Source: Arion vulgaris
Taxonomy: Eukaryota > Mollusca > Gastropoda > Stylommatophora > Arionidae
Length of the DNA: 64,000 bases
Assembly (NCBI GenBank): GCA_020796225.1
Contig: CM036762.1
Span: 16,358,786-16,422,785, forward strand
Direction of reading: 5' to 3'
Within the stretch, counting starts at the first letter, position 1; every line of letters starts with the position of its first letter. The translations under genes and the position numbers were made by a program. A model generated the notes under the pieces. That model was not told the origin of the DNA. It did not search any database and saw nothing but the letters and a program-made list of their open reading frames with translations. Positions 1 to 62,775 of this stretch are shown here, piece after piece.

Positions 1-3000
1 TGATCACGTTTATATTGTTGATCTCGTTTATATTAGCTTGTGATCTCGTTTATATTGTTGATCACGTTTATATTGTTGATCACGTTTATATTGTTGATCA
101 CGTTTATATTGTTGATCACGTTTATATTGTTGATCTCGTTTATATTGTTGATATCGTTTATATTGTTGATCTCGTTTATATTGTTGATCACGTTTATATT
201 GTTGATCACGTTTATATTGTTGATCACGTTTATATTGTTGATCTCGTTTATAATTGTTGATCCTTTTTATATTGTTGATCTCGTTTATATTGTTGATCTC
301 GTTTATATTGTTGATCTCGTTTATATTGTTGATCTCGTTTATATTGTTGATCTCGTTTATATTGTTGATCACGTTTATATTGTTGATCACGTTTATATTG
401 TTGATCACGTTTATATTGTTGATCACGTTTATATTGTTGATCTCGTTTATATTGTTGATCTCGTTTATATTGTTGATCTCGTTTATATTGTTGATCCGTT
501 TATATTGTTGATCTCGTTTATATTGTTGATCCGTTTATATTGTTGATCCGTTTATATTGTTGATCTCGTTTATATTGTTGATCTCGTTTATAGGCTTTGT
601 TGATCATTTTACGTATATTGTTGATCCGTTTATATTGTTGATCTCGTTTATATTGTTGATCTCGTTTATATTGTTGATCACGTTTATATTGTTGATCTCG
701 TTTATATTGTTGATCACGTTTATATTGTTGATCTCGTTTATATTGCTGATAGATCACGTTTATATTGTTGATCACGTTTATATTGTTGATCTCTGTTATA
801 TACATAATTGTTGATCACGTTTATATTGTTGATCTCGTTTATATTGTTGATCACGTTTATATTGTTGATCACGTTTATATTGTTGATCTCGTTTATATTG
901 TTGATCACGTTTATATTGTTGATCACGTTTATATTGTTGATCTCGTTTATATTGTTGATCACGTTTATATTGTTGATCACGTTTATATTGTTGATCACGT
1001 TTATATTGTTGATCTCGTTTATATTGTTGATCTCGTTTATATTGTTGATCACGTTTATATTGTTGATCTCGTTTATATTGTTGATCACGTTTATATTGTT
1101 GATCACGTTTATATTGTTGATCTCGTTTATATTGTTGATCACGTTTATATTGTTGATCACGTTTATATTGTTGATCACGTTTATATTGTTGATCACGTTT
1201 ATATTGTTGATCACGTTTATATTGTTGATCACGTTTATATTGTTGATCACGTTTATATTGTTGATCACGTTTATATTGTTGATCACGTTTATATTGTTGA
1301 TCACGTTTATATTGTTGATCTTTTGTTTATATTGTTGATCACAGTTTATATTAGTTGATCCGTTTATATTGTTGATCTCGTTTATATTGTTGATCACGTT
1401 TATATTGTTGATCTCGTTTATATTGTTGATCTCGTTTATATTGTTGATCACGTTTATATTGCTGTTTTGATCACGTTTATATTGTTGATCTGTTTATATT
1501 GTTGATCTCGTTTATATTGTTGATCACGTTTATATTGTTGATCTCGTTTATATTGTTGATCTCGTTTATATTGTTGATCCGTTTATATTGTTGATCTCGT
1601 TTATATTGTTGATCTCGTTTATATTGTTGATCTCGTTTATATTGTTGATCCGTTTATATTGTTGATCTCGTTTATATTGTTGATCTCTGTTTATATTGTT
1701 GATCCGTTTATATTGTTGATCTCGTTTATATTGTTGATCACGTTTATATTGTTGATCTCGTTTATATTGTTGATCTCGTTTATATTGTTGATCACGTTTA
1801 TATTGTTGATCTCGTTTATATTGTTGATCTCGTTTATATTGTTGATCTCGTTTATATTGTTGATCTCGTTTATATGTTGATCACGTTTATATTGTTGATC
1901 TCGTTTATATCATTGTTGATCTGTTTATATTGTTGATCACGTTTATATTGTTGATCTCGTTTATATTGTTGATCTAGTTTATATTGTTGATCTCGTTTAT
2001 ATTGTTGATCTCGTTTATATTGTTGATCCTGTTTATATTGTTGATCTCGTTTATATTGTTGATCTCGTTTATATTGTTGATCTCGTTTATATTGTTGATC
2101 ACGTTTATATTGTTGATCTCGTTTATATTGTTGATCTCGTTTATATTGTTGATCCGTTTATATTGTTGATCTCGTTTATATTGTTGATCTCTGTTTATAT
2201 TGTTGATCTCGTTTATATTGTTGATCCGTTTATATTGTTGATCCGTTTATATTGTTGATCACGTTTATATTGTTGATCTCGTTTATATTGTTGATCACGT
2301 TTATATTGTTGATCTCGTTTATATTGTTGATCCTTGCTTTATATTGTTGATCACGTTTATATTGTTGATCTCGTTTATATTGTTGATCACGTTTATATTG
2401 TTGGATCTGTTTATATTGTTGATCTCTGTTTATATTGTTGATCTCTGTTTATATTGTTGATCCTCTTTATATTGTTGATCCTGTTTATATTGTTGATCCG
2501 TTTATATTGTTGATCTTGTTGTCATATTGTTGATCCGTTTATATTGTTGATCACGTTTATATTGTTGATCACGTTTATATTGTTGATCTCGTTTATATTG
2601 TTGATCACGTTTATATTGTTGATCTCGTTTATATTGTTGATCTCGTTTATATTGTTGATCTCGTTTATATTGTTGATCACGTTTATATTGTTGATCACGT
2701 TTATATTGTTGATCACGTTTATATTGTTGATCTCGTTTATATTGTTGATCTTGTTTATATTGTTGATCTCGTTATATTGTTGATCACGTTTATATTGTTG
2801 ATCACGTTTATATTGTTGATCACGTTTATATTGTTGATCTCGTTTATATTGTTGATCTCGTTTATATTGTTGATCACGTTTATATTGTTGATCTCGTTTA
2901 TATTGTTTGATCTCTGCTTTATATTGTTGATCTCGTTTATATTGTTGATCTCGTTTATATTGTTGATCACGTTTATATTGTTGATCTCGTTTATATTGTT

Positions 3001-6000
3001 GATCTCGTTTATATTGTTGATCTCGTTTATATTGTTGATCCGTTTATATTGTTGATCCGTTTATATTGTTGATCCGTTTATATTGTTGATCCGTTTATAT
3101 TGTTGATCTCGTTTATATTGTTGATCTCGTTTATATTGTTGATCCGTTTATATTGTTGATCACGTTATATTGTTGATCTCGTTTATATTGTTGATCCGTT
3201 TATATTGTTGATCCGTTTATATTGTTGATCTCGTTTATATTGTTGATCTCGTTTATATTGTTGATCCTCGTTTATATTGTTGATCACGTTTATATTGTTG
3301 ATCTCGTTTATATTGTTGATCACGTTTATATTGTTGATCTCGTTTATATTGTTGATCTCGTTTATATTGTTGATCTTGTTTATATTGTTGATCTCGTTTA
3401 TATTGTTGATCACGTTTATATTGTTGATCACGTTTATATTGTTGATCTCTTTTATATTGTTGATCTCGTTTATATTGTTGATCACGTTTATATTGTTGAT
3501 CCTGTCTTATATTGTTGATCTCGTTATTTGATCGTTAGTTGATCACTGTTTATATTGTTGATCTCGTTTATATTGTTGATCTCGTTTATATTGTTGATCT
3601 CGTTTATATTGTTGATCCGTTTATATTGATCTGTTTATGGATCTCGTTTATATTGTTGATCACGTTTATATTGTTGATCACGTTTATATTGTTGATCTAT
3701 ATTGTTGACGTTTATATTGTTGATCCGTTTATATTGTTGATCTCGTTTATATTGTTGATCTCGTTTATATTGTTGATCACGTTTATATTGTTGATCACGT
3801 TTATATTGTTGATCTCGTTTATATTGTTGATCACGTTTATATTGTTGATCACGTTTATATTGTTGATCTCGTTTATATTGTTGATCTCGTTTATATTGTT
3901 GATCCGTTTATATTGTTGATCTCGTTTATATTGTTGATCACGTTTATATTGTTGATCACGTTTATATTGTTGATCTCGTTTATATTGTTGATCACGTTTA
4001 TATTGTTGATCACGTTTATATTGTTGATCTCGTTTATATTGTTGATCTCGTTTATATTGTTGATCACGTTTATATTGTTGATCACGTTTATATTGTTGAT
4101 CTCGTTTATATTGTTGATCACGTTTATATTGTTGATCTCGTTTATATTGTTGATCACGTTTATATTGTTGATCTAGTTTATATTGTTGATCTCGTTTATA
4201 TTGTTGATCACGTTTATATTGTTGATCTCGTTTATATTGTTGATCACGTTTATATTGTTGATCACGTTTATATTGTTGATCTCGTTTATATTGTTGATCT
4301 CGTTTATATTGTTGATCCGTTTATATTGTTGATCACGTTTATATTGTTGATTCCGTTTATATTGTTGATCTCGTTTATATTGTTGATCACGTTTATATTG
4401 TTGATCTCGTTTATATTGTTGATCTCGTTTATATTGTTGATCTCTTATTGTGACGTTTATATTGTTGATCCGTTTATATTGTTGATCTCGTTTATATTGT
4501 TGATCTCGTTTATATTGTTGATCTCGTTTATATTGTTGATCTCGTTTATATTGTTGATCCGTTTATATTGTTGATCTCGTTTATATTGTTGATCCATGCC
4601 GTTTATATTGTTGATCCGTTTATATTGTTGATCTCGTTTATATTGTTGATCTCGTTTATATTGTTGATCCGTTTATATTGTTGATCCGTTTATATTGTTG
4701 ATCTCGTTTATATTGTTGATCTCGTTTATATTGTCTGATTGATCCGTTATATTGTTGATCCTGTTTATATTGTTGATCCTGTTTATATTGTTGATCTCGT
4801 TTATATTGTTGATCCGTTTATATTGTTGATCTCGTTTATATTGTTGATCTGTTTTATATTGTTGATCTCGTTTATATTGTTGATCTCGTTTATATTGTTG
4901 ATCTTGTTTATATTGTTGATCCGTTTATATTGTTGATCCGTTTATATTGTTGATCTCGTTTATATTGTTGATCCGTTTATATTGTTGATCCTGTTTATAT
5001 TGTTGATCTCGTTTATATTGTTGATCTCGTTTATATTGTTGATCTCGTTTATATTGTTGATCTCGTTTATATTGTTGATCCGTTTATATTGTTGATCCGT
5101 TATATTGTTGATCTCGTTTATATTGTTGATCTCGTTTATATTGTTGATCACTTTTATATTGTTGATCCGTTTATATTTGATCCGTTTATATTGTTGATCC
5201 GTTTATATTGTTGATCCGTTATATTGATCGTTATTGTTGATCCGTTTATATGTGTTGATCTCGTTTATATTGTTGATCTCGTTTATATTGTTGATCTCGT
5301 TTATATTGTTGATCTCGTTTATATTTTGATCTGATTTTGATCCTTATATTGTTGATCTCGTTTATATTGTTGATCTCGTTTATATTGTTGATCTCGTTTA
5401 TATTGTTGATCCGTTTATATTGTTGGATCAACGTTTATATTGTTGATCACGTTTATATTGTTGATCACGTTTATATTGTTGATCACGTTTATATTGTTGA
5501 TCTCGTTTATATTGTTGATCTCGTTTATATTGTTGATCCGTTTATATTGTTGATCCGTTTATATTGTTGATCACGTTTATATTGTTGATCCGTTTATATT
5601 GTTGATCTCTGTTTATATTGTTGATCTCGTTTATATTGTTGATCTCGTTTATATTGTTGATCCGTTTATATTGTTGATCACGTTTATATTGTTGATCCGT
5701 TTTTTAGTATTGTTGATCCGTTTATATTGTTGATCTCTGCTTTATATTGTTGATCCGTTTATAGTTATGTTGATCTCGTTTATATTGTTGATCTCGTTTA
5801 TATTGTTGATCTCGTTTATATTGTTGATCCGTTATATCGTTAGATCTCGTTTATATTTGATCTGTTTATATTGTTGATCTCGTTTATATTGTTGATCCGT
5901 ATATTGTGATCCGTATTGTTGATCCGCTTATATTGTTGATCTCGTTTATATTGTTGATCTCGTTTATATTGTTGATCTCGTTTATATTGTTGATCTCGTT

Positions 6001-9000
6001 TATATTGTTGATCTCGTTTATATTGTTGATCTCGTTTATATTGTTGATCTCGTTTATATTGTTGATCTCGTTTATATTGTTGATCTCGTTTATATTGTTG
6101 ATCTCGTTTATATTGTTGATCTCGTTTATATTGTTGATCCGTATAGTTGATCTCGTTTATATTGTTGATCTCGTTTATATTGTTGATCCGTTATTATTGA
6201 TCCTTAAGTTGGATCTCGTTTATATTGTTGATCTCGTTTATATTGTTGATCCGTTTATATTGTTGATCCGTTTATATTGTTGATCCGTTTATATTGTTGA
6301 TCTCGTTTATATTGTTGATCTCGTTTATATTGTTGATCCGTTATATTGTTGATCCGTTTATATTGTTGATCTCGTTTATATTGTTGATCCGTTTATATTG
6401 TTGATCTCGTTTATATTGTTGATCCGTTTATATTGTTGATCTGTTTATATTGTTGATCCGTTTATATTGTTGATCACGTTTATATTGTTGATCCGTTTAT
6501 ATTGTTGATCCGTTTATATTGTTGATCTCGTTTATATTGTTGATCCGTTTATATTGTTGATCCGTTTATATTGTTGATCCGTTTATATTGTTGATCTCGT
6601 TTATATTGTTGATCACGTTTATATTGTTGATCACGTTTATATTGTTGATCACGTTTATATTGTTGATATTGTTGATCTCGTTTATATTGTTGATCTCGTT
6701 TATATTGTTGATCTCGTTATCATTGTTGATCCGTTTATATTGTTGATCTCGTTTATATTGTTGATCCGTTTATATTGTTGATCTCGTTTATATTGTTGAT
6801 CCGTTTATATTGTTGATCCGTTTATATTGTTGATCTGTTTATATTGTTGATCTGTTTATATTGTTGATCACGTTTATATTGTTGATCTCGTTTATATTGT
6901 TGATCTCGGTTATATTGTTGATCACGTTTATATTGTTGATCTCGTTTATATTGTTGATCACGTTTATATTGTTGATCCTGTTTATACTTGTTGATCTCGT
7001 TTATATTGTTGATCCTGTTATATTGTTGATCTCGTTATATTGTTGATCTCGTTTATATTGTTGATCCGTTTATGATTTAGTTGATCACGATTTGATCTAT
7101 ATGTTGATCTCGTTTATATGTTGATCTGTTTATATTGTTGATCCGTTTATATGTGATCTTTTATTGTTGATCTGTTTATATTGTTGATCCGTTATATTGT
7201 TGATCTCGTTTATATTTGATCCGTTTATATGTTGATCTCGTTATATGTTGATCTCGTTTATATTGTTGATCCTGCTTTATATTGTTGATCCGTTTATATT
7301 GTTGATCTCGTTTATATTGTTGATCCGTTTATATTGTTGATCTCGTTTATATTGTTGATCCGTTTATATTGTTGATCCGTTATATTGTTGATCCGTTTAT
7401 ATTGTTGATCCGTTTATATTGTTGATCTCGTTTATATTGTTGATCTCGTTTATATTGTTGATCCGTTTATATTGTTGATCTCGTTATATTGTTGATCTCG
7501 TTTATATTGTTGATCTCGTTTATATTGTTGATCCGTTTATATTGTTGAATCTACGTTTATATTGTTGATCCGTTTATATTGTTGATCCGTTTATATTGTT
7601 GATCTCGTTTACGTTTATATTGTTGATCTCGTTTATATTGTTGATCCGTTTATATTGTTGATCCGTTTATATTGTTGATCCGTTTATATTGTTGATCCTG
7701 TTTATATTGTTGATCCGTTTATATTGTTGATTCATTTTATTTGTTGATCCGTTTATATTGTTGATCCGTTTATATTGTTGATCTGTTTATATTGTTGATC
7801 TCGTTTATATTGTTGATCCGTTTATATTGTTGATCTCGTTTATATTGTTGATCTCGTTTATATTGTTGATCCGTTTATATTGTTGATCTGTTTATATTGT
7901 TGATCCGTTTATATTGTTGATCCGTTTATTTGTGATCCGTTTATATGTTGATCTCGTTTATATTGTTGATCCTGTTTATATTGTTGATCCCGTTTATATT
8001 GTTGATCCTGTTTATATTGTTGATCCGTTTATATTGTTGATCCGTTTATATTGTTGATCTCGTTTATATTGTTGATCTCCGTTTATATTGTTGATCCTGT
8101 TTATATTGTTGATCCGTTTATATGTTGATCTGTTATATTGTGATCCGTTTATATTGTTGATCTCGTTTATATTGTTGATCCGTTTATATTGTTGATCCGT
8201 TTATATTGTTGATCCGTTTATATTGTTGATCTCGTTATATTGTTGATCCGTTTATAGTTGACCGTATATTGTTGTCCTTTATATTGTTGATCTCGTTTAT
8301 ATTGTTGATCCGTTTATATTGTTGACTCCGTTTATATTGTTGATCCGTTTATATTGTTGATCTCGTTTAATATTGTTGATCCGTTTATATTGTTGATCTC
8401 GTTATATTGTTGATCCGTTATATTGTTGATCACGTTTATATTGTTGATCATCGTTTATATTGTTGATCCGTTTATATTGTTGATCCGTTTATATTGTTGA
8501 TCCGCTATATTGTTGATCCGTTTATATTGTTGATCCGTTTATATTGTTGATCTCACGTTTAATTGTTGATCACGTTTATATTGTTGATCCGTTTATATTG
8601 TTGATCCGTTTATATTGTTGATCCGTTTATATTGTTGATCCGTTAATTGTGATCTCGTTATATTGTTGATCTCACGTTTATATTGTTGATCACGTTTATA
8701 TTGTTGATCCGTTTATATTGTTGATCCGTTTATATTGTTGATCACGTTTATATTGTTGATCCGTTTATATTGTTGATCCGTTTATATTGTTGATCCGTTT
8801 ATATTGTTGATCACGTTATATTGTTGATCCGTTTATATTGTTGATCCGCTTTAATTGTTGATCCGTTTATATTGTTGATCACGTTTATATTGTTGATCCG
8901 TTATATTGTTGATCACGTTTATATTGTTGATCACGTTTATATTGTTGATCACGTTTATATTGTTGATCCGTTTATTGTTGATCCGTTTATATTGTTGATC

Positions 9001-10181
9001 CGTTTATATTGTTGATCCGTATATTGTTGATCAGTTTATGTGTTGATCCGTTTATATTGTTGATCCTGTTATATTGTTGATCACGTTTATATTGTTGATC
9101 TGTTTATATTGTTGATCACGTTTATATTGTTGATCACGTTTATATTGTTGATCACGTTTATATTGTTGATCACGTTTATATTGTTGATCACGTTTATATT
9201 GTTGATCACGTTTATATTGCTGATCCGTTTATATTGTCTGATCTGTTATATTGTTGATCTCGTTTATATTGTTGATCTCGTTTATATTGTTGATCCGTTA
9301 TATGTTGATCTGTTTATATTGTTGATCCTGTTTATATTGTTGATCCGTTTATATTGTTGATCCTCGCTTATATTGTTGATCCTGTTTATATTGTTGATCT
9401 CGTTTATATTGTTGATCCGTTTATATTGTTGATCCGTTTATATTGTTGATCCGTTTATATGTTGATCCGTTTATATTGTTGATCCTCGTTTATATTGTTG
9501 ATCCGTTTATATTGTTGATCCGTTTATATTGTTGATCCTGTTTATATTGTTGATCCGTTTATATTGTTGATCTGTTTATATTGTTGACTTCTGACGTTAT
9601 ATGTTGATCACGTTATATTGTTGATCTGTTTATACCGTTTATATTGTTGATCTTATATTGTTGATCCGTTTATATTGTTGATCCGTTTATATTGTTGATC
9701 CGTTTATATTGTTGATCACGTTTAGTGATCACGTTTATATTGCTTGATCTCGTTTATATTGTTGATCACGTTTATATTGTGATCCGTTTATATTGTGATC
9801 CGTTTACTGTTGACGTTTTATGCACTTTATATTTGATCACGTTTATATTGTTGATCGTTATTGTGATCACGTTATATTGTTGATCTGTTTATATTGTTGA
9901 TCTCGTTAATTGTATCCGTTATATTGTTGATCACGTTTATATTGTTGATCACGTTATATTGTTGATCACGTTTATATTGTTGATCTCGTTTATATTGTTG
10001 ATCACGTTTATATTGTTGATCACGTTTATATTGTTGATCACGTTTATATTGTTGATCACGTTTATATTGTTGATCTCGTTTAATTGTTGATCACGTTTAT
10101 ATTGTTGATCTCGTTTATATTGTTGATCACGTTTATATTGTGATCTGTTTATATTGTTGATCTGTTTATATTGTTGATCTC
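1..10181. repeat. 17/18-bp satellite array, about 10.2 kb, LINE-seeded
   Basis: Head-to-tail copies of the monomer GTTTATATTGTTGATCTC fill the first 10 kb, roughly 570 units. Three main classes differ at the dinucleotide after GATC: TC and AC (18 bp) and a single C (17 bp). TC and AC units dominate to about 4.7 kb; the 17-bp class and irregular indels become common after about 5 kb. Homogeneous runs exist, for example about ten AC units near 1140-1320 and about eleven TC units near 5935-6140. Each unit carries a GATC, and AC units carry TGATCA. Because 18 is a multiple of three, four of the six frames stay open for long stretches, giving meaningless hexapeptide-repeat ORFs. The array begins beyond the left edge. 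Its last monomer (10165-10181) is also the start of the adjoining LINE fragment, and 17 bases (GAGATCAACAATATAAA on the minus strand) are identical to 39728-39744 in another copy of that LINE. Confidence 0.97.
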
Positions 10182-10435
10182 TGTCTACAAATCTCGTACC
10201 ATGTATTTTTAGGCCTCATTTCTTTCGCTGTCCCTGCGGTTCCAAGACAAGGACCTCTTGTTATATTATTCTCAGGTTGCAAAGTGTGTCCTATCCAGCG
10301 TCTTTTTAAAACCCTTGGTTCACTGGAATCTGTCTTGTTCTCTCCATAACTTCCACGTTTATGACCCTATCATACCATATCAGTCTCTATTCTGGAGACA
10401 CCAGTTGATGAAATGTTTCAATGTATGAGTGGATT
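10165..10435 (-). mobile_element. LINE group 1 3' fragment (RT C-terminal tail), degenerate
   Basis: Read on the minus strand this gives a degraded version of the tail found after the reverse transcriptase of non-LTR elements: a segment like FIN.CL, then RTRQIPV, then RWIGHT-like, then a region matching the 39575-39850 and 22840-23350 copies. It is frameshifted and carries no intact ORF. Its left end overlaps the last satellite monomer in the correct LINE register, which is the key evidence for the origin of the satellite. Assignment to a named clade is not possible from this fragment. Confidence 0.8.
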
Positions 10436-10890: not shown

Positions 10891-11381
10891 ATACGAACGG
10901 CGGGCTCGGGTAACAATTTTAGGAAATCAGACCACAACTGTCGAGTGATCCTCGCATTCCAGTGTTGTTGTATATAGACGAATTCATTTCTTCTTCTTTG
11001 CGTTCGTTCTTTACGACCAATTTTAATCATTCTTTGTGATATGCTTGATCTTTGCCAAGAACGTGTATACGTTGCACATTGGTTTGGTAGGCCCCTAAAC
11101 GCATAAGACTTCACGTTTAGGACACATGCATCCGATTTCAGCCAAACCTCCTTAGTCGCCTCTTACGACATGCGTGGAAGGTAACAGTGGTTCTATTCTT
11201 TACACCCCAAATTTGGGCCCGGAAACCACTCGGGCGACGAATTCATTTTAAAATAACACAACATGCTAAATCAATGTTATATTATGTTACCTCAAGTTTA
11301 AAGCTTAGGAAAATCAGTATTACTAACATTTTTTTAATCAATAAATAACAATGAACGCACAGAATTGAGTAAAATTGCACA
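10891..11381. repeat. Repeat M, copy 1, interrupted by a SINE A insertion
   Basis: The flanks of the SINE at 10990-11235 (about 10891-10989 and 11249-11381) match 25905-26133 with modest divergence. That second copy has the site unoccupied. The repeat is noncoding and unclassified. Confidence 0.8.
10990..11235 (-). mobile_element. SINE family A, full copy with TSD
   Basis: A minus-strand copy of the (GAA)n-tailed family A: the tail reads TTCTTCTTTG on the plus strand at 10990 and the head ends near ACCACTCGGGC. It is flanked by an exact 13-bp target duplication GACGAATTCATTT at 10977-10989 and 11236-11248. The internal module ATGTCGTAAGAGGCGACT (here with a few substitutions) is shared with family B. 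The head resembles the box A part of a tRNA-Ser/Leu (CGAGTGGTTA), but I see no convincing box B. Confidence 0.92.
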
Positions 11382-14649: not shown

Positions 14650-14885
14650 AACTTATTTTAGATAAGGACACACTTTGTGAAAACAGGAGGAAAATATAAC
14701 AAGATAGCTCCTTTTCTGGAACCCGCAGGGACAGCGAAAGAAGGGAAGGCTGAGAAATACATGGAGATGGGATTTGGAGGTGGAGATCAACAATGTAAAG
14801 AAGAGCTGTAGTGGGCTGCAGGAGATAGCTAGAGGTAGGAAGATTGGCATGAGTTGGTTGAGGGCCAATCCAAGTTAAAAAGGCA
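14650..14885 (+). mobile_element. LINE group 1 3' tail fragment
   Basis: Nucleotide match to 39600-39840: GGACACACTTTG, GAACCCGCAGGGACAGCGAA, GAGATCAACAAT.TAAAGAA and GGCATGAGTTGGTTGAGGGC. It has several indels and no open frame. It contains a diverged single copy of the sequence that seeded the 18-bp satellite. Confidence 0.88.
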
Positions 14886-15325: not shown

Positions 15326-15406
15326 TAATTGTAATATGGGTTGTGTTGTTCTTTCTTAATGACTTATGTTGTTACTTATAATGTGGGACATATTAGTGTA
15401 ATGCAT

Positions 15407-15702
15407 CGCTCGAGTGGTTACCGGCACCCAAATTTGGGGTGTAAAGAATAGAACCACTGTTACCTGCCACGCATGTCGTAAGAGGCGACTAAGGAGGTTT
15501 GGCTGAAATCGGATGCATGTGTCCTAAACGTGCAGATGTCTATGCGTTTAGGGGCCTACCAAACCAATGTGCAACGTATACATGTTATTGGCAAAGATCA
15601 AACATATCACAAAGAGTGATTAAAATTGGTCGTAAAGAACGAACACAAAGAAGAAGAAGAAGAAGAAGAAGAAGAAGAAGAAGACGAAGAAGAAGAAGAA
15701 AA
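15407..15702 (+). mobile_element. SINE family A with long (GAA)n tail and TSD
   Basis: A full copy from the CGCTCGAGTGGTTACCGG head to a long GAAGAAG tail of about 55 bp. It is flanked by the exact 12-bp duplication AGTGTAATGCAT (15395-15406 and 15703-15714). The poly-Arg ORF through it is the translated tail, not a protein. The target lies at the head of another SINE-like repeat (family G). Confidence 0.93.
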
Positions 15703-16375: not shown

Positions 16376-16694
16376 CATAATGGTATAAATGAAAAACTTT
16401 GTGACTATGTTCTTCACGTACGAATCTCTCTTTAATGTATATTAGTGATTCTTCAAGCATATATTCGCTATAATAATTTTACAGTTGATTTTCAAGTCAA
16501 TACCCTCCCTGTAACAAACTTACACTTTAACATTCACGTTTTGTGGATTAAGTTCTGTTTGCTTAATGCAAATATCCAAATGCTACTAACAACATAACCC
16601 ATTGAATCGATGAGGCACACAAACCACATTCAACAGTCGTGCACAGCAAATTTGATTTCTACCTGTCGTTTGCCATATTTTCTGCTACCATCTG

Positions 16695-20300: not shown

Positions 20301-20430
20301 GGAGGCAGAGATCAACATTATAAAGAAGAGCTGGAATGAGCTGCAGGAGATAGCTAGAGATAGGAAAACTTGGCATGAGTTGGTTGAGGGCCTATGCCCT
20401 AATCTGAGTTAAAAAGGCAGAGCGAGAGAG
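20301..20430 (+). mobile_element. LINE group 1 3' tail fragment
   Basis: GGAGGCAGAGATCAACATTA, AAGAAGAGCTGGAATGAGC and GGCATGAGTTGGTTGAGGGC match 39721-39840. The sequence from 20431 to 20759 shows nothing I recognise. Confidence 0.88.
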
Positions 20431-21334: not shown

Positions 21335-21342
21335 GACTAGAT

Positions 21343-21765: not shown

Positions 21766-22230
21766 TATGCTAGAAAGACTAGTTAGATAGACAGGTTAGA
21801 TAGACTAGATAGACAGGTTAGATAGACTATTTAGATGGTCTCGCCCGAGTGGTTACCGGGCCCAAATTTGGGGTGTCAAGAATAGAACCACTGTTACCTG
21901 CCACGCATGTCGTAAGGTGACGACTAAGGAGATTTTGCTGAAATCGGATGCATCTCTCCTAAACGTGTAGAAGTCTATGCGTTTAGGGGCCTACCAAACC
22001 AATGTGTAACGTATACACGTTCTTGGCAAAGAACAAACATATCACAAAGAGTGATTAAAATTAGTCGTAAAGAACGAACGCAAAGAAGAAGAAGAACAAA
22101 GAGTGATTAAAATTGGTCATAAAGAAGGAACGCAAAGAAGAAGAAGAGATGGACTGACTAGATAGACTGGTTAAATAGACTATTTAGGTGAACTATCTAG
22201 ATAGACTGATTAAATAGACTGGTTAATTAG
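21766..22230. repeat. GATA/GACT-like simple repeat split by a SINE
   Basis: Short imperfect units such as TAGATAGACTGGTTA occur on both sides of the SINE A copy at 21838-22150. Confidence 0.75.
21838..22150 (+). mobile_element. SINE family A with duplicated tail
   Basis: A family A copy from CCCGAGTGGTTACCGGGCCC to GAAGAAGAAG. The 3' segment CAAAGAGTGATTAAAATT through the tail is present twice in tandem (about 22036-22096 and 22097-22146). No clear target duplication is visible in the simple-repeat flank. Confidence 0.88.
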
Positions 22231-24195: not shown

Positions 24196-24205
24196 GTGTA
24201 ATGAC

Positions 24206-24463
24206 CACCCGAGTGGTTACCGGGGCCCAAATTTGGGGTGTAAAGAATAGAACCACTGTTACCTGCCATGCATGTCGTAAGAGGCGACTATGGAGGTTTG
24301 GCTAAAATCGGATGCATGTGTCCTAAACGTGTAGAAATCTATACGTTTAGGGGCCTACCAAACCAATGTGCAACGTATATACGTTCTTGGCAAAGATCAA
24401 ACATATCACAGAGAGTGATTAAAATTGGTCGTAAAGAACGAACGCAAAGAAGAAGAAGAAGAT
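24206..24463 (+). mobile_element. SINE family A, full copy with TSD
   Basis: It runs from CACCCGAGTGGTTACCGGGG to GAAGAAGAAGAAGAT and is flanked by the exact duplication GTGTAATGAC (24196-24205 and 24464-24473). It was inserted next to a LINE fragment. Confidence 0.92.
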
Positions 24464-24559
24464 GTGTAATGACAGAACACCAATGGTGCAAGAGACATCA
24501 CATCTCTATAATTAAGGGAAGGTACCTTGTTACTTTTTCACTTTAATCACTTGGACACA

Positions 24560-24823
24560 TCAAATGACATGATTGCCTGGAGAAATTAACTTTGGAAGGA
24601 ATGGTGCCTGGAAGAAGAACGAGAGGAAGACCTAGAAGAAGAATGAGAGGAAGACCTAGAAGAAGAATGAGAGGAAGACCTAGAAGACGATGGGTGCAGG
24701 ATGTCATTGACAATCTGAGAATGACTGCTGCTGACGCCGGTCAACTTGCACAAAACAGAGTTTTTCAGGAATGCTGTCATGGGAGCCAAGTTCCGGAAGG
24801 AACAAGCTACTTGATGATGATGA
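24560..24823 (+). mobile_element. LINE group 6 3' fragment with in-frame triplication
   Basis: The frame reads LEGMVPGRRTRGRPRRR, then WVQDVIDNLRMTAADAGQ, then LAQNRVFQECCHGSQVPEG. A 24-bp segment coding for RGRPRRRM is repeated three times in frame at about 24610-24685. The tail ends in a GATGATGATGA tract. The sibling copy at 48624-48819 has a single copy of that segment. Confidence 0.85.
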
Positions 24824-30457: not shown

Positions 30458-30720
30458 TCACAAAAATGAAATGTAATCTCTTTATCATAAATCAATAAAA
30501 TGTAATTTCTTTATCATAAATCAATAAAATATAATTTCTTTATCATAAATCAAACAAAATGTAATTTCTTTATCATAAATCAATAAAATGTAATTTCTTT
30601 ATCATAAATCAATAAAATGTAATTTCTTTATCATAAATCAATAAAATGTAATTTCTTTATCATAAATCAATAAAATGTAATTTGTTTATCATAAATCACT
30701 AAAATAAAATATAAATTATT
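30458..30720. repeat. 29-bp tandem repeat, about 9 copies
   Basis: Unit CATAAATCAATAAAATGTAA followed by TTTCTTTAT; very AT-rich. Confidence 0.95.
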
Positions 30721-35350: not shown

Positions 35351-35383
35351 ACAATCAAAACGGCACAGCTAACCAGTTAGTCT

Positions 35384-35634
35384 TCTTCTTCTTTGCGTTC
35401 GTTCTTTACGACCAATTTTAATCACTCTTTGTTATATGTTTGATCTTTGCCAAGAACGTATATACGTTGCACATTGGTTTGGTAGGCCCCTAAACACATA
35501 GACTTCTACACGCTTAGGACACATGCATCCGATTTCAGCCAAACCTCTTTAGTCGCCTCTTACAACATGCATGGCAGGTAACAGTGGTTCTATTCTTTAC
35601 ACCCCAAATTTAGGCCCCGGTAACCACTCGGGCG
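35384..35634 (-). mobile_element. SINE family A, full copy with TSD
   Basis: TTCTTCTTCTTTGCGTTCG tail side to CCCGGTAACCACTCGGGCG head. Exact 12-bp duplication ACCAGTTAGTCT at 35372-35383 and 35635-35646. Confidence 0.93.
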
Positions 35635-35646
35635 ACCAGTTAGTCT

Positions 35647-37755: not shown

Positions 37756-37918
37756 CTGCAGGATTGTCAACTGCTAGCAGACCGGAGAAACGAAACCTGG
37801 CCGGAAAATATCGATTTGAATGAGAAGCTGTACGGAGGGACGGAGTCCCTAAAAACAAAAGCAGAATTTATGAGGAAATCTGTTACATCAGTCTAAGCAG
37901 ATTACGTGAAGAAGAAGA
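37756..37918 (+). mobile_element. LINE group 4 tail inserted in SINE B, with 12-bp TSD
   Basis: The frame reads LQDCQLLADRRNETWPENID, then LNEKLYGGTESLKTKAEFM and a stop shortly before GAAGAAGAAG. This is the C-terminus and 3' end of a non-LTR element of the FRLRTGH...LQDCP type. Exact duplication AGATCACATACA at 37744-37755 and 37919-37930 marks it as a 5'-truncated insertion. Confidence 0.92.
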
Positions 37919-39074
37919 AGATCACATACAAATCACACGGAGTGGTTGACAAGTGGTCGATATGGAGCGTTTCAAGAAGAAGAAGATCACATACAAATCA
38001 CACGGAGTGGTTGACAAGTGGTCGATATGGAGCGTTCCAAGAAGAAGAAGATCACATACAAATCACACGGAGTGGTTGACAAGTGGTCGATATGGAGCGT
38101 TTCAAGAAGAAGAAGATCACATACAAATCACACAGAGTGGTTGACAAGTGGTCGATATGGAGCGTTTCAAGAAGAAGAAGATCACATACAAATCACACAG
38201 AGTGGTTGACAAGTGGTCGATATGGAGCGTTTCAAGAAGAAGAAGATCACATACAAATCACACGGAGTGGTTGACAAGTGGTCGATATGGAGCGTTCCAA
38301 GAAGAAGAAGATCACATACAAATCACACGGAGTGGTTGACAAGTGGTCGATATGGAGCGTTCCAAGAAGAAGAAGATCACATACAAATCACACGGAGTGG
38401 TTGACAAGTGGTCGATATGGAGCGTTCCAAGAAGAAGAAGATCACATACAAATCACACGGAGTGGTTGACAAGTGGTCGATATGGAGCGTTTCAAGAAGA
38501 AGAAGATCACATACAAATCACACGGAGTGGTTGACAAGTGGTCGATATGGAGCGTTCCAAGAAGAAGAAGATCACATACAAATCACACGGAGTGGTTGAC
38601 AAGTGGTCGATATGGAGCGTTCCAAGAAGAAGAAGATCACATACAAATCACACGGAGTGGTTGACAAGTGGTCGATATGGAGCGTTCCAAGAAGAAGAAG
38701 ATCACATACAAATCACACGGAGTGGTTGACAAGTGGTCGATATGGAGCGTTTCAAGAAGAAGATCACATACAAATCACACAGAGTGGTTGACAAGTGGTC
38801 GATATGGAGCGTTTCAAGAAGAAGAAGATCACATACAAATCACACAGAGTGGTTGACAAGTGGTCGATATGGAGCGTTCAAGAAGAAGATCACATACAAA
38901 TCACACAGAGTGGTTGACAAGTGGTCGATATGGAGCGTTCCAAGAAGAAGATCACATACAAATCACACAGAGTGGTTGACAAGTGGTTGATATGGAGCGT
39001 TCCAAGAAGAAGATCACATACAAATCACACAGAGTGGTTGACAAGTGGTCGATATGGAGCGTTCCAAGAAGAAG
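37919..39074 (+). repeat. 65-bp tandem array of the SINE B 3' end, about 18 units
   Basis: Each unit is GATCACATACAAATCACAC then GGAGTGGTTGACAAGTGG then TCGATATGGAGCGTTCCAAG and GAAGAAGAA. Early units are 65 bp; some late units are 61-62 bp with a shorter GAA tract. Variant positions (CACGGAG or CACAGAG, TTTCAAG or TTCCAAG) are distributed in blocks. The many 63-residue ORFs beginning MVDMER are periodicity artefacts. Confidence 0.98.
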
Positions 39075-39442: not shown

Positions 39443-39574
39443 ATAGGTTGGGACGGATTAGCGCACTGCGTAGGTTGTATCATTGATTGAGACACAAAGG
39501 ATTGTGAGCTCATTTCCTGTACCCTATGTTTTACAAGATAATAAAGTACTGTCACTCCTAGCTCCTATTCCAGT

Positions 39575-39850
39575 GAATGAACAGGTTAAAAAAAGACACT
39601 GGCGCTGGATAGGACACACTTTGCGAAAACCGGAGGGAATATAACAAGAAGGGTCCTTGCCTGGAACCCGCAGGGACAGCGAAAGAAGGAGAGGCCGAGA
39701 AATACATGGAGACGAGATTTGGAGGCGGAGATCAACAATATAAAGAAGAGCTGGACGGAACTGCAGGAGATAGCTAGAGATAGGAAGACTTGGCATGAGT
39801 TGGTTGAGGGCCTATGCCTCAATCCGGGGTAAAAAAGGCAAAGAGAGAGA
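39575..39850 (+). mobile_element. LINE group 1 3' end, best nucleotide copy
   Basis: KRHWRWIGHTLRKPEG, then (after a frameshift) a tail equivalent to EAEINNIKKSWTELQEIA and WHELVEGLC. Positions 39728-39744 are identical to 17 bases of the satellite monomer. The preceding 39443-39560 resembles SINE G. Confidence 0.9.
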
Positions 39851-43322: not shown

Positions 43323-43427
43323 TAAATAAAGGTACTGCATTTTTCTGTTGTTACACTTCTGTGGCTAACTTGCGTGTCTACGAGTGCCACGCTGAACTAG
43401 TTCATAGGTTTTTCCAAAATAAAAATA

Positions 43428-43499
43428 TTCCCATGCCGGGAATCGAACCCGGGCCGCCTGGGTGAAAGCCAGGAATCCTAACCACTAGACCACATGGGA
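43428..43499 (-). tRNA. tRNA-Glu (anticodon UUC)
   Basis: A 72-nt intronless tRNA on the minus strand. The acceptor stem TCCCATG pairs perfectly with CATGGGA. Box A is TGGTCTAGTGG and box B GGTTCGATTCC, both exact consensus. The anticodon arm is CCTGG-CTTTCAC-CCAGG, giving anticodon TTC. A TTTTT run lies immediately downstream (complement of 43421-43425), a normal RNA polymerase III terminator. Complete pairing and a terminator distinguish it from the decayed tRNA-like SINE heads nearby. The gene decodes GAA/GAG. Confidence 0.96.
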
Positions 43500-44005
43500 A
43501 GGTGACGATTCTGAGCAAATTAATGGTATTGTGTGTTTTACTTCAGACCGGTTTAAATTTTACATAGGTCGTGCAAGTAATTTGTCCATACCACTCTATC
43601 CATAATAATCAAGGTTGATTTTTGTTAACAAAAATAATAATGACCTTGTTTGCAAATCAGAAAAATTATATGATAAGGGTTTACAGATTAAATCAATGTT
43701 TTCTCGATTTACTGAATGAAAAATCATGAATAGTATCTGTATTACTCGGTGCTAACTGCGTCTAAGTGCTAGCTGAAATAGTTCAAGGTTTCAAAATAAA
43801 TTTCTGAATGCTCGGCTTGCAGATCAAACATGACATGAAGTGACGTTCTACAATTAATGGTATATGTTGATTCTTCATTTAATTTCATGTCGGACATAGT
43901 AATTATCCATCCCTCTATGCCATTTCAGGTTGTTTTTAACCCAAAAAGCCGTTTCCACAAATTTGTGGGGTTTCTAGAAAACATGAGGGGAGAAGAGAAA
44001 GATCA
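43500..44005. other. No gene recognised
   Basis: AT-rich sequence. The ORF at 43857-44090 runs into the MITE and has no domain. A segment at 43550-43615 (CGTGCAAGTAATTTGTCCAT) resembles LINE tail flanks, weakly. Confidence 0.45.
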
Positions 44006-46136: not shown

Positions 46137-46998
46137 AGTAAAGCCAACCATTTCCAGAACTTTCTGAACCGTCAAAGTACAAGATATTCATACACACAAA
46201 AATACAAGAAAACTCACACAAAAGTGAGGAAGTTATATTTTATTATGTATTTTGTTTTTTACTACTGGAAGAGTCGGAAATTTATTTTGATTTAAATAAA
46301 ATTGAAAACATACCAGTTTGAAAACCCTTATGCTACTGTTATAAGAATTGATGTTTACGTATGAAACTCGTGACCGCATTACAACTAGTTTACACACGCA
46401 TGATGTACGCATAAGCGTATCTTCTCGTTCACACACGAACAATGTGCGCATAAGCGTATCTGATCGTCTTATTTCAAATGCTTTCAATGTGTAGGAGCCA
46501 ACGTTTCTGGAACCCTGCGTCAAAGCATTGTATGATATAGTACACCAGTATTTTATTCATTTTAGGTAATAGTGTATACGATAAATCTATTAGCGAAACG
46601 ATAAATCCTTAATTGCTGTCTTTTACTAGCATGCTATGTGGAACATATTAATTCTATGTGCATGAGAGTTTCTACAGTCGCTATGAGCATACATTTTAAT
46701 ATATTTCATTTGGTTTGACATGTGTTATTTCCAACTATAGTTTGACACTCGGTGTCAGTTACCTGTAATAATGTTTCTGAAACTTGAAGATATTAGAACA
46801 TCACGGATATTTTAAGCAGTGTAGCTTTAAGTATGATATTAAGACTACTAAGAAGCTGTTCATGTTTGGAGATGTTATCTTACATACAAATGACAGTGAA
46901 GCTTCTAAAACACTGATCAGATTTGGATTCTGTGCAATCTGAAACAAGTGACGTTGAAGCTTCCAAGAAACTATTCATTTTTGGATTATATGTAATTT
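46137..46998. promoter_or_regulatory. Upstream region of the 47006 exon, promoter not identified
   Basis: AT-rich and largely free of recognised repeats, unusual for this window, apart from two short imperfect repeats: GTGAAGCTTCTAAAACACTG (46899) and GTTGAAGCTTCCAAGAAAC (46953). I cannot point to a TATA box or initiator with confidence. A run ending TGTAATTTAG at 46991-47000 could be a splice acceptor, in which case the transcription start is further upstream. Confidence 0.35.
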
Positions 46999-47005
46999 AG
47001 CACAA

Positions 47006-47818
47006 ATGGCATTCTTTTCACGTTACAAATCAGCTCCACAACTTCATCTGATGAGTGGTAACACTAGCATTGTTCTCAATGCAGGCACTCCATCAGATGA
47101 AGAATATACAGAAGCAAGCGAGGGAGTTTCATCCGAAAGGGAGGATGGAGAAAACATGATCAGAGAAAAACCTTCCTTCTTCGCGTACATTACCAACACT
47201 ACACAGTCACATAAAGGAACTTCACTGCTGCCTGCTGTGAGTGAGTTTAATGATGCCTCAGAAGTTATGTTAAGAAAGACTAGATTGACACCAGTGCTGC
47301 CGGGAATGTCATCAAGAGCTGCTTCAAGACATAGCTATGCTTGTGAATTGGATGTGTTTGGTTTTCAAGCTTCCAGCAGTATAGAATCAACGGCTTCTGA
47401 TTCAAAACTTGTCTATCAAACTTCAACAGATAGCGATTCTGTATCGCTGGAACCTGGTCGTGGTTCCAATTTTCCTGGCGAACTTGCTGGTGCTGACAAT
47501 TTATACACACACACGGCACTCGGAGACAGAGCTCTAGCTGGGTCCCCCAGATCGCGTTCTAGACTTATCAGGCTTCGAGAAGCATTCCGCTCGCCTCAGA
47601 TTGGTCGCAAAAAGGCATTAAAACAGAAAAGTGATGAAGACAGTTCGCCACGTTTAAGAAAAGCAAGATCTGAAGATGGCACATTTGTGAAGATGAAAAA
47701 GTCCAAAACAGATGGCTGGAACAAATCTCCAAATGGTAGTTTCGAACCTATTCCTGAAATGTCTGACACAGTTATAGCCCTTGGATACGAGTTGCTGGTC
47801 CCTGATCAAGAATTTGAA
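47006..47818 (+). CDS. First coding exon of an unrecognised protein (271 codons, incomplete)
   Basis: The ATG at 47006 has a good context (CACAAATGG) and is the first in frame after an in-frame stop at 46955-46957. The frame is open for 271 codons and reaches a consensus donor, GAA|GTAAGT, at 47818/47819, in phase 0; the following codons read into a T-rich intron. Composition is non-repetitive and codon use is unlike the surrounding repeat ORFs. The product begins MAFFSRYKSAPQLHLMSG. It has an acidic Ser/Glu-rich patch at residues 29-50 (SDEEYTEASEG), long Ser-rich stretches, a basic segment at about residues 183-240 (RSRSRLIRLREAFRSPQ; RLRKARSED; KMKKSKTDGW) with RxxS-type sites, and a more hydrophobic end, DTVIALGYELLVPDQEF. 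No signal peptide or membrane segment is seen. It looks like the disordered N-terminus of a larger cytoplasmic or membrane-associated regulator, with folded domains in later exons. I do not recognise the family and give no function. Confidence 0.8.
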
Positions 47819-47824
47819 GTAAGT
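47819..47824 (+). promoter_or_regulatory. 5' splice donor GTAAGT
   Basis: Perfect match to the metazoan donor consensus directly after codon 271. No downstream coding exon is recognisable up to 64000, so the intron probably exceeds 16 kb. Confidence 0.75.
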
Positions 47825-48519
47825 TTTAGTTTTTGTTTAGTTATCAATTTTTATGATTTGTTGAATCAAATATTTTTCTGTGTCTTCAATTTTATTAGTT
47901 TTTTTAAAAAATGTTCTGTTACTTCTTAATTTCAGATCTTATCTTAATTTTATATCTTATCTTAATTTCAAATTTTAACTTAATTTCGTTCCTCGCTGAC
48001 TCATATCTTACCACTTTTATTGCGGTTGTCTCCCCATCCCATTATTTAGACATCCCAAACTATTACTATAGTTTAGTTGCTATTTCATTAATTACTTCCC
48101 TTCGTATGGGTAATAGCCATCCATCGCAGTCGATATGTCAACAGTCTCAGACGTATGTTGTTGAACCTCCCTGATGTGTATGGATGTGTCCGTAGTGTCA
48201 AATTCTGAAATTCAGTCCTGCACCCCAAGGTTAGGCCCTTAAGTATTGTGTTCTCGGCCTTTTCTGTCCTCTGCCCCCTCAGCAGTACGTCAATTCTCAG
48301 CCACGCAAGATTCTCATGTTACAACGTCACATTTTACGATTTTGCGCAAAGGATTCCCATCACTTGGTGTCTATTATCGAAACATTTTAAAGACAATTTT
48401 AAGAATGTCTTTGGAGTGTTTTTTCTGTCCAAATAGTGTCGGCATTTAGCTCGCTATACATCAACTGTTTTGAAATGCGTTTATCAGGCGTCTGCGCAAC
48501 GTGATCGACCCGTCTCACT
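47825..48519. other. Start of putative intron; small repeats only
   Basis: AT-rich. ATCTTATCTTAATTT is repeated imperfectly at 47936-47985. A 60-bp segment at 48115-48175 (CAGACGTATGTTGTTG) also occurs at 50935-50995. No coding evidence. Confidence 0.5.
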
Positions 48520-48623: not shown

Positions 48624-48819
48624 AGATAATTTTGGAGGGAATGGTGACTGAAAGAAGAATGAGAGGAAAACCTAGAAGACGATGAATGCAAGATGTCATT
48701 GATGATCTGAGAATGACTACTGCCGATGCCGGTCAACTTGCACAGAACAAAATTTTTTTCAGGATTGCTGTTATGGGAGCCAAGTTCCGGAAGGGACAAG
48801 CTACTTGATGATGCTGATG
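48624..48819 (+). mobile_element. LINE group 6 tail inserted in LINE group 5, with TSD
   Basis: The plus frame reads LEGMVTERRMRGKPRRR, a stop, then MQDVIDDLRMTTADAGQLAQ and GAKFRKGQAT, ending GATGATGCTGATG. The duplication AATCTGCGGAGA (48612-48623) versus AATCTACGGAGA (48820-48831) has one mismatch. Sibling of 24560-24823. Confidence 0.88.
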
Positions 48820-54386: not shown

Positions 54387-54645
54387 TATCTTCTTCTTCT
54401 TCGCGTTCGTTCTTTACGACCAATTTAATCACTCTTTGTAATATGTGTGATCTTTGCCAAGAACGTGTATACGTTGCACATTGGTTTGGTAGGCCCCTAA
54501 ACGCATGGATATCTACAAGTTTAGGACATGTACATCCGATTTCAGCCAAACCTCCTTAGTCGCCTTTTACGACATGCATGGCAGGTAACAGTGGTTCTAT
54601 TCTTTACACCCCAAATTTGGGCCCGGTAACCACTCGGCGTATATT
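54387..54645 (-). mobile_element. SINE family A, minus-strand copy
   Basis: TTCTTCTTCTTCGCGTTCG to CCCGGTAACCACTCGG. Flanking duplication not clear. Confidence 0.9.
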
Positions 54646-55107: not shown

Positions 55108-55400
55108 CTTCTTCTTCTTCATCACCTTTCAACTCCCAGCGGAGCACAGGTCTTCAACAAATCTGCCTTGATGGCCTCTACTGGAATGTTGTCTGGCCCA
55201 GCTGCATTTCTTTCAACTCCCAGCGGAGCACAGGTCTTCAACAAATCTGCCTTGATGGCCTCTACTGGAATGTTGTCTGGCCCAGCTGCATTTCTTTCAA
55301 CTCCCAGCGGAGCACAGGTCTTCAACAAATCTGCCTTGATGGCCTCTACTGGAATGTTGTCTGGCCCAGCTGCATTTCTTTCAATATTTGTAATTATTTG
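55108..55400 (-). mobile_element. LINE RT fragment with 84-bp in-frame triplication
   Basis: The minus frame encodes NAAGPDNIPVEAIKAD then LLKTCAPLGVER, the AGPD.IP motif at the start of the reverse-transcriptase domain. The 28-codon block occurs three times in perfect tandem (starts near 55126, 55210 and 55294). A diverged single copy of the CAPLGVE side is at 22845-22910. Confidence 0.88.
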
Positions 55401-55455: not shown

Positions 55456-55700
55456 CAGTGTTTCCCAGCCTTTTTTCAATGCCCCACCTAAGCTGTTCTA
55501 AAATTGCCCGGATGCTCCTATGTTACTCTACATGCATATATATATAAATAGATAAATATATAAAAATATATAAATGATAAGCTATAAATAGATATATAAA
55601 TATAAAAATATATAATAGATAAATATATAAATATTATACATAAATGCATATTTAAATCCTTAACAATCAAATTGCCTGGATGGCCAATTTGGAAACACTG
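55456..55700 (+). mobile_element. hAT-like MITE 4 (probable)
   Basis: Ends CAGTGTTTCCCAGCC and TTTGGAAACACTG are inverted and hAT-like. Flanks CTATAAAT and CTAAATAG do not match as a clean 8-bp duplication. The interior is AT-rich with ATATAAATA-like repeats. Confidence 0.65.
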
Positions 55701-58067: not shown

Positions 58068-58227
58068 CATGGAAAAAATTGGAAGGGATGGCAGGAGAGA
58101 GGAAGAGCTGGTAGAAGTTTGTTGAAGACCTGTGCTCTGTTGGGAGTTGAAAGTTGAAGAAGAAGAAGAAGGACTTGTCTGTGTGTTTGTAAGTTAGTTT
58201 ATTATCATTGTTTCTTTTAGCAGAGAC

Positions 58228-60215: not shown

Positions 60216-60480
60216 CATAAATCAATTTTTACTATTGAGTTAACTAATGAAAAAAGCAATTGCTGAGTTAACTAATGCAATTGTAACAATTTACTATTGA
60301 GTTAACTTGCAATTGGGAAAATAATTACCACGGTTAACTAATAAATAATTTACTATATTGAGTTAACTAATGAAATAATACTGGTAACAACAATTTTTAC
60401 TATTGAGTTAACTAATGAAATAACACCGGTAACAATAATTTTACCACTGAGTTAACTAATGACATAATACAATATCAAGA
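60216..60480. repeat. Irregular 40-60-bp tandem repeat, about 6 copies
   Basis: TTTACTATTGAGTTAACTAA then TGAAATAATAC.GGTAACAA, with unit lengths varying by internal deletions. GTTAAC is in every unit. Confidence 0.88.
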
Positions 60481-61694: not shown

Positions 61695-61760
61695 CGGTTG
61701 TCTCCAGATCTGGTTTTGTCTGACCACCTCAGATCTGTAGATTTCTGTACATTGCCTTCT
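61695..61760 (+). repeat. Repeat family E fragment
   Basis: ACGGTTGTCTCCAGATCTGG then ACCACCTCAGATCTGTAGAT and TTCTGTACAT. It forms the junction of the adjacent palindrome. Confidence 0.7.
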
Positions 61761-61959
61761 TGCTTAGCCAAACTACAGTTGTACAGTCTGTTACCAGTGT
61801 GTTTGCTTTGCCTTCTTGCTTAGCCAAACTACAGTGGTACAGCCTGTTATCAGTGTACCACTGTACCACTGTAGTTTGGCTAAGCAAGGAGGCAAAGCAA
61901 ACACACTGGTAACAGGCTGTACCACTGTAGTTTGACTAAGCAAGAAGGCGATGTACAGA
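61743..61959. repeat. Near-perfect palindrome, arms about 98 bp, loop about 20 bp
   Basis: Left arm 61743-61841 and right arm 61862-61959 are inverted copies with few mismatches. Each arm contains CTTGCTTAGCCAAACTACAG twice (once as a TTAGTC variant). A further direct copy of this block lies at about 61640-61690. Confidence 0.9.
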
Positions 61960-62035
61960 AGGCCAGTATACTGGCTTTGCGTCATCTTAAAAAGAAACAC
62001 CGTTGGCCAGTATATCAGCTTAGAAGCTAGAAAGG
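61960..62035 (-). mobile_element. Short LINE group 8-like fragment
   Basis: CCAGTATACTGGCTTTGCG then TCATCTTAAAAA match 42068-42130, next to the RT end there. Confidence 0.55.
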
Positions 62036-62569: not shown

Positions 62570-62775
62570 GGGTATAAACCCTCAACCAACTCATGCCAAG
62601 TCTTCTTATCTCTAGCTATCGTCTGCAGCTCCCACCAGCTCTTCTTTATAGTGATCTCTGCCTCCAAATCTCGTCTCCGTGCATTTCTCGGTCTCCCCTT
62701 CTTTCGCTGTCCTCTGCGGGTTCCAGAAAAGGACTCATCTTGTTATATTCCCCTCCGGTTTTCGTTATGCACACT
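62570..62775 (-). mobile_element. LINE group 1 3' tail fragment
   Basis: CCAACTCATGCCAAGTCTTC, CTCTTCTTTATAGTGATCTC and CTTTCGCTGTCCTCTGCGGG are the reverse of 39660-39800. The satellite seed is shortened here to TTTATAGTGATCTC. Confidence 0.88.

Follow-up and report, generated by a model that had tools for sequence, protein, structure and literature searches.

Satellite and minisatellite arrays derived from transposable elements (TEs) are well known. By the account of a human survey, 7,276 of 31,472 minisatellite arrays (23%) stem from TEs, 601 of them tied to L1, with L1PA counted apart (PMC3389668), and passages in reviews add minisatellites derived from Alu and from long terminal repeat (LTR) elements (PMC9659126, PMC6947457). 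Satellites listed there as derived from long interspersed nuclear elements (LINEs) include the common cetacean satellite (L1 3' end), PROsat of Phodopus (L1 ORF2) and HinfI of chicken (CR1) (PMC9659126), and PcH-sat of the limpet Patella caerulea is traced to Nin-SINE (PMC11121367). Here we describe a 10-kb tandem array of 18-bp units in the gastropod Arion vulgaris that abuts, in register, a fragment of a LINE-like open reading frame (ORF) and very probably derives from such an element. It lies in a window of 64,000 nucleotides, the whole stretch of DNA analysed (contig CM036762.1, positions 16,358,786 to 16,422,785). In many satellites, the sequence of origin can no longer be recognised. What distinguishes this locus within a known kind is its unusually long array and the preservation of its birth junction.

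The array occupies the left end of the window (Table 1). Tandem Repeats Finder (TRF) gave a period of 18 with 576.4 copies, 90% matches and 7% indels; the array reaches window position 1, so this copy number is a figure for the visible part only. G+C content is 28%. Parsing at GATC yielded 567 anchors and thus 566 spacings, 322 of them 18 bp and 145 of them 17 bp long, and 178 of the 566 units carry the exact common 18-mer. From the right, the minus-strand LINE fragment enters the array, whose first monomer is the LINE's own next 17 bases, GAGATCAACAATATAAA. BLAST matches of this fragment were found at 39567-39744, 14665-14799 and 62652-62760, and MAFFT also placed the copy at 20.3 kb. The alignment to the 39.7-kb and 14.8-kb copies extends from the LINE body through GAGATCAACAATATAAA, which bears out the initial annotation's claim that array and LINE are in register at this point. 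Past GAGATCAACAATATAAA, the array reads CAGATCAAC... and the LINE GAAGAGCTGG; set beside the sister copies, which have GAAGAGCTG or near it, the array has CAGATCAACAATATAAA. The array therefore lies in register inside a TE copy on its right side, which is the element's 5' side. No remainder of the LINE 3' part and no 5' part was detected inside the array at E values up to 1.

We found further evidence on the source in the close sister copies of the LINE. The site is single in all four close sister fragments that reach it: the 39.7-kb copy holds the 17-mer once, 100% identical to the monomer, the copies at 14.8 kb and 20.3 kb hold it with one mismatch each, and the copy at 62.6 kb lacks three bases, which agrees with the annotated single copies, exact at 39.7 kb and diverged elsewhere. 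Because the site occurs once in each of these four sisters, within an aligned coding tail, the LINE is taken as the source and not the recipient. Monomer and LINE tail are identical at 17 of 18 bases, and 17 is also the longest stretch they share when both strands are compared. Across 20,000 shuffles of the monomer that kept its composition, a stretch of 17 bases in common with the LINE tail never arose, and stretches of 16 and 15 arose once each, a comparison that ignores the further coincidence of the match sitting exactly at the junction. The annotated likeness of the reading frames also stands, with EINNIN in the array and EINNIK in the 39.7-kb copy; the EINNIN frame stays open in the array because 18 is a multiple of 3. 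Taken together, derivation of the satellite monomer from the LINE is well supported by these sequence comparisons. Of the proposed origin at the LINE 3' end, the LINE part holds and the very end of the element does not, since the motif sits within the coding tail, with about 85 bases separating it from the stop codon in the 39.7-kb copy.

The ORF tail of the 39.7-kb copy, translated as KKTLALDRTHFAKTGGNITRRVLAWNPQGQRKKERPRNTWRRDLEAEINNIKKSWTELQEIARDRKTWHELVEGLCLNPG, was also compared with known proteins. A protein search returned one relative, P0001, with 80% identity over 83% of the query, and Pfam gave DUF3293 only, at 18.7 bits and below the cut-off of 25. We provisionally take this tail, the part of the element studied here, to be the end of an RTE-like non-LTR retrotransposon. 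Against the junction fragment, tblastn with P0001 gave three minus-strand pieces with stops, all within 10421-10199, so the annotated fragment end near 10435 is about right. The same search found many more LINE tails in the window besides the close sisters (Table 1), which points to several LINE subfamilies here. A scan of viral contigs with a two-row alignment of LINE tails gave 564 stretches that match by pattern and none that match by tblastn. An open-access text search for the monomer and the LINE-tail peptides returned no paper and leaves papers outside its collection uncovered.

Our preferred reading, to which we assign a probability of roughly 80%, is that the LINE tail gave rise to the array, which would be a minisatellite or young satellite, with the first duplication taking place within a LINE copy, most likely the copy at the junction. 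Several observations weigh against it. In place of EAEINNIKKSW, P0001 has EAESKNIKKSW at the motif, and the window's more diverged LINE tails likewise depart from it at this point, which confines the exact 17-mer to the close LINE subfamily. One of the two predicted junctions, the right one, is visible, and the left edge lies outside the window. No other locus of the satellite was seen, which is weak evidence, as its scope is one pattern scan of viral contigs with 0 matches. There is no direct repeat of at least 4 bases at lags of 17-19 around the motif, and variation dominated by indels (324 of 362 edits) clouds the history of the array. The first of these points would suit an older, unrelated satellite, matched by the LINE by chance or copied into it, as the exact 17-mer is implied neither by P0001 nor by the diverged tails. 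We regard this as highly improbable. Chance identity is rejected on account of the shuffles, none of which reached 17 shared bases; acquisition of the motif by the LINE is rejected on account of its place within the aligned coding tail of the close sisters; and the junction is in register. Birth in another copy of the same LINE family is a more serious competitor, though an unlikely one. The satellite would then have moved here later, for example by recombination through the 17 shared bases or by insertion of an extrachromosomal circle, and those 17 bases would permit such a junction, of which a single edge is visible. The junction LINE has decayed, with 15 substitutions and 10 indel events across 182 columns relative to the copy at 39567, while 178 units meanwhile retain the exact common 18-mer. 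Arrival exactly in register would nevertheless demand an extra step, and the same weak scan offers no other locus from which the satellite could have come. For the annotated expansion inside a LINE copy, the LINE origin and the in-register right edge are borne out, and growth in the junction copy itself rests on one edge. Because that edge still continues the LINE in register, the junction copy is the most likely place for the tandem duplication to have begun.

A further explanation concerns the detail of the array and not its origin, and it is compatible with seeding by the LINE tail. The array may be real while its copy number and its 17-, 18- and 19-bp and CGA, CGT and CG variants are largely artefacts of assembly or base calling, a possibility to which we give slightly less than an even chance. 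Relative to a monomer whose variable place may hold A, T or nothing, 173 insertions, 151 deletions and 38 substitutions were counted in the array. Family A, a short dispersed repeat, served as the comparison, and the 15 pairs among six of its copies (3' tails trimmed off) have 189 substitutions and 25 indel events; the indel excess of the array is strong (Fisher p 6e-83, the pairs not being independent). Single-base indels in such excess resemble unpolished long-read sequence, and unit-length differences may partly be sequencing error, although real slippage would also yield indels; the copy number and the differences in unit length are accordingly treated here with caution. Deletions concentrate in the AAA run and at the linker G, 94 of the 566 units are of a type that occurs once, and the junction LINE fragment differs from its sisters by 9-12 indel events, compared with 6-8 among the sisters themselves. 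Uniform error would not, however, produce the regional grading of the three linker variants. When eight other arrays were compared with themselves one unit on, three were free of indels (the 22-bp array, the 29-bp array at 16688 and the 102-bp array), which also speaks against a general artefact; two had 2 and 6 indels, and three gave no usable answer. In those three (25-bp, 17-bp and 15-bp units), TRF reports 3-6% indels, so the 10-kb array is not unique in having them.

The internal order of the array was examined through its linkers and unit types. Scored with a strict core pattern (n=477), the linkers were CGA (186), CGT (118), CG (117), CA (15), CAG (13), CAGA (5) and rarer forms, and CGA, CGT and CG are graded by region along the array (chi-square 106.5, 18 degrees of freedom, p 1.4e-14). 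The longest repeated string of units was 10, a run of the commonest unit. This exceeds 50 global shuffles (mean 6.6, maximum 9) and falls within 50 shuffles in blocks of 60 units (mean 7.4, maximum 11), so that no higher-order repeat was found beyond block shuffles. Adjacent units are mildly alike (0.28 compared with 0.18 expected), which indicates some local clustering.

We infer the junction copy as birthplace, the type of the first event, the mechanism of expansion and the absence of a function. The seed would have been a piece of 17-19 bases from the C-terminal coding end of the LINE-like retrotransposon, duplicated in tandem in a LINE copy; later unequal exchange, local duplication or slippage would have raised it to more than 560 units, with the interior homogenised more than the edge. 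The 18th base could have come about in two ways. With CAGAGATC just upstream, a contiguous 19-bp unit, CAGAGATCAACAATATAAA, may have formed and later been shortened; the linker this unit would give, CAGA, accounts for 5 of the 477 scored. Alternatively, 14 bases may have been lost between two LINE copies of GAGAT, joining CGAGAT to CAACAATATAAA and giving CGAGATCAACAATATAAA, the commonest unit; CGAGAT is present in three of the four LINE copies compared.

The annotated mechanism, slippage or unequal exchange, was examined through direct repeats. Those of at least 4 bases at lags of 10-21 around the motif were limited to GAGAT (lag 14) and AGAG (lag 20), in a test sequence for which a sister copy supplied the last 10 bases, the original context being outside the window. 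A first step by the simplest form of slippage is therefore unsupported, lacking a repeat at the right lag; more generally, slippage and unequal exchange are both candidate mechanisms. The Haber-Louis model calls for direct repeats of 5-10 bp at the bounds of the unit, and none was found at the lag of the unit (17-19), the two repeats just named being the only ones at lags of 10-21. A first step that escapes explanation is usual, as the models known in 2012 are stated to explain only 6% of human TE-derived arrays (PMC3389668). The distribution of edits relates to the later steps: per 500 bp, the two bins next to the LINE hold 36 and 33 edits and the last ten hold 5 to 22 each, the final bin spanning only 181 bases. 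Denser edits at the edge are expected in theory under homogenisation of the interior by exchange, and a local change in sequence quality could also yield them. The Taylor-Breden model, as described, expects an incomplete terminal unit (PMC3389668). The LINE-side edge has 17-base units, which also occur throughout the array (145 of 566), and the other edge lies outside the window.

Table 1. Positions of the array, the LINE-like copies and other repeat features in the window.
Feature	Position	Strand	Remark
18-bp tandem array	1-10181	-	monomer in LINE orientation GAGATCAACAATATAAAC; left end outside window
Last monomer, in-register LINE continuation	10165-10181	-	17 bases
LINE-like ORF tail fragment	10165-10435	-	frameshifts and stops; protein similarity up to 10421
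Sister LINE copy	39567-39829	+	exact 17-mer at 39728-39744; ORF tail 39590-39829
Sister LINE copy	14665-14842	+	site once, one mismatch
Sister LINE 3' piece	20301-20412	+	site once, one mismatch
Sister LINE copy	62575-62764	-	site without three bases
Diverged LINE-like ORF tails akin to P0001	13889-14212, 17331-17549, 18278-18490, 22901-23218		tblastn
Diverged LINE-like ORF tails akin to P0001	30806-31093, 34409-34759, 41700-42023, 49708-49914		tblastn
Family A short dispersed repeat	10988-11237, 15406-15664, 21841-22096, 24198-24460, 35381-35635, 54389-54637		AAG-rich tail
Two tandem copies of last 52 bp of family A	22044-22147	+	in copy starting near 21841
18 copies of 65 bp	37909-39074	+	family B 3' end and AAG tail

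The search for an origin in dispersed elements was extended to further arrays. We note that the 23 arrays considered were hand-picked from 82 TRF rows, leaving out dinucleotide runs, the same array under another period and other short rows, and that up to 5 or 6 matches per array were considered, with the 10-kb array tested by its flanks only. In 3 of the 23, including the 10-kb array, the monomers are clearly pieces of dispersed elements. The 52-bp segment at the end of family A is doubled in one of the six copies found and single in the other five; this doubling is comparable in kind to the event behind the 10-kb array, caught at two copies. The 65-bp array lies near a family B copy broken off at about 37755 and is not continuous with it, about 150 bp lying between. 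From their length and tail, our guess is that families A and B are short interspersed nuclear elements (SINEs). The AAG run at 15648 belongs to a family A copy, whose tail it forms.

Several cases were partial or ambiguous. The 84-bp array at 55126-55384 (100% matches in TRF) shares 36 bp (94%) with 58118-58153; as a separate observation, a weak match to a LINE-like ORF tail, at 58070-58135, overlaps the latter segment. At 24823, the 44-bp array shares 38 bp with 24490-24526, and the 24-bp array at 24607 shares 31-35 bp with 48648-48682, the start of another dispersed repeat. A weak match at 55549 was found for the 34-bp array at 21338, the 45-bp array at 60356 has a nearby match at 60223-60277, and the arrays at 26680 and 28312 match each other. 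For the remaining hand-picked arrays, no monomer match elsewhere in the window was present among the matches listed, and those at 30465, 33146 and 49067 had no match of any kind in the window. The clear cases tentatively suggest a 3'-end bias in the seeding of arrays. We can tentatively imagine that 3' ends of non-LTR elements are regular array seeds in this genome, with 2 (52 bp), 18 (65 bp) and more than 560 (18 bp) copies as successive stages tied to element insertion or repair and not to random later slippage, but we consider this doubtful.

The window contains three further features. A 323-residue open frame at 46958-47926 has no Pfam match and could be an exon of a host gene. ARAGORN and Rfam both place a tRNA-Glu (TTC) gene at 43427-43500 on the minus strand. 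At 61743-61960, there is an inverted repeat with 100-nt arms, 95% complementary and 18 nt apart, possibly a foldback element.

With the source, one junction and single-copy sisters all within 64 kb, the first steps of the birth of a satellite can be examined at this locus. Should the remainder of the LINE turn up in the left flank, the expansion could be dated and ordered with the help of the orthologous site in relatives. More broadly, the window suggests that 3' ends of dispersed non-LTR-like elements have repeatedly seeded arrays in this genome.

Compared with described systems, the locus shares its general course with the human TE-derived arrays, in which a TE piece becomes tandem and local duplication expands the array (PMC3389668). 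The scale is different: human Alu-derived arrays are reported to average 2.3-2.4 units, with a long example of 17 units of 52 bp, whereas here there are about 570 units of 18 bp (PMC3389668). The human survey, by its stated limits, covered units longer than 20 bp with a G+C content of at least 40%, and an array of 18 bp and 28% G+C falls outside both (PMC3389668). The models of Haber and Louis (1998) and of Taylor and Breden (2000), as described in later papers, propose tandem duplication between short repeats followed by expansion (PMC6947457, PMC3389668). Unlike in both of these birth models, the motif here has no flanking short repeats at the right spacing (PMC6947457, PMC3389668). The satellites of Lathyrus sativus derived from Ogre are similar in that short arrays inside a retrotransposon are described as seeding long arrays (PMC7004042). 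Ogre, however, is an LTR element whose 3' untranslated region was already tandem, whereas the source here is single copy and in coding sequence (PMC7004042). PcH-sat, like our array, draws on a non-LTR element, whose 3' part is included in its monomer (PMC11121367). In that case, 118 bp of the monomer match the element and the satellite is pericentromeric, and its description, in the passages that concern its origin, gives no in-register birth junction, in contrast to the junction seen here (PMC11121367). In source, the array resembles the cetacean, Phodopus and chicken satellites, whose sequence likewise goes back to a LINE, to its 3' part or ORF (PMC9659126). The array of A. vulgaris differs from them, as they are summarised in that review, in its monomer of only 18 bp and in having kept the junction with its source at one edge (PMC9659126).

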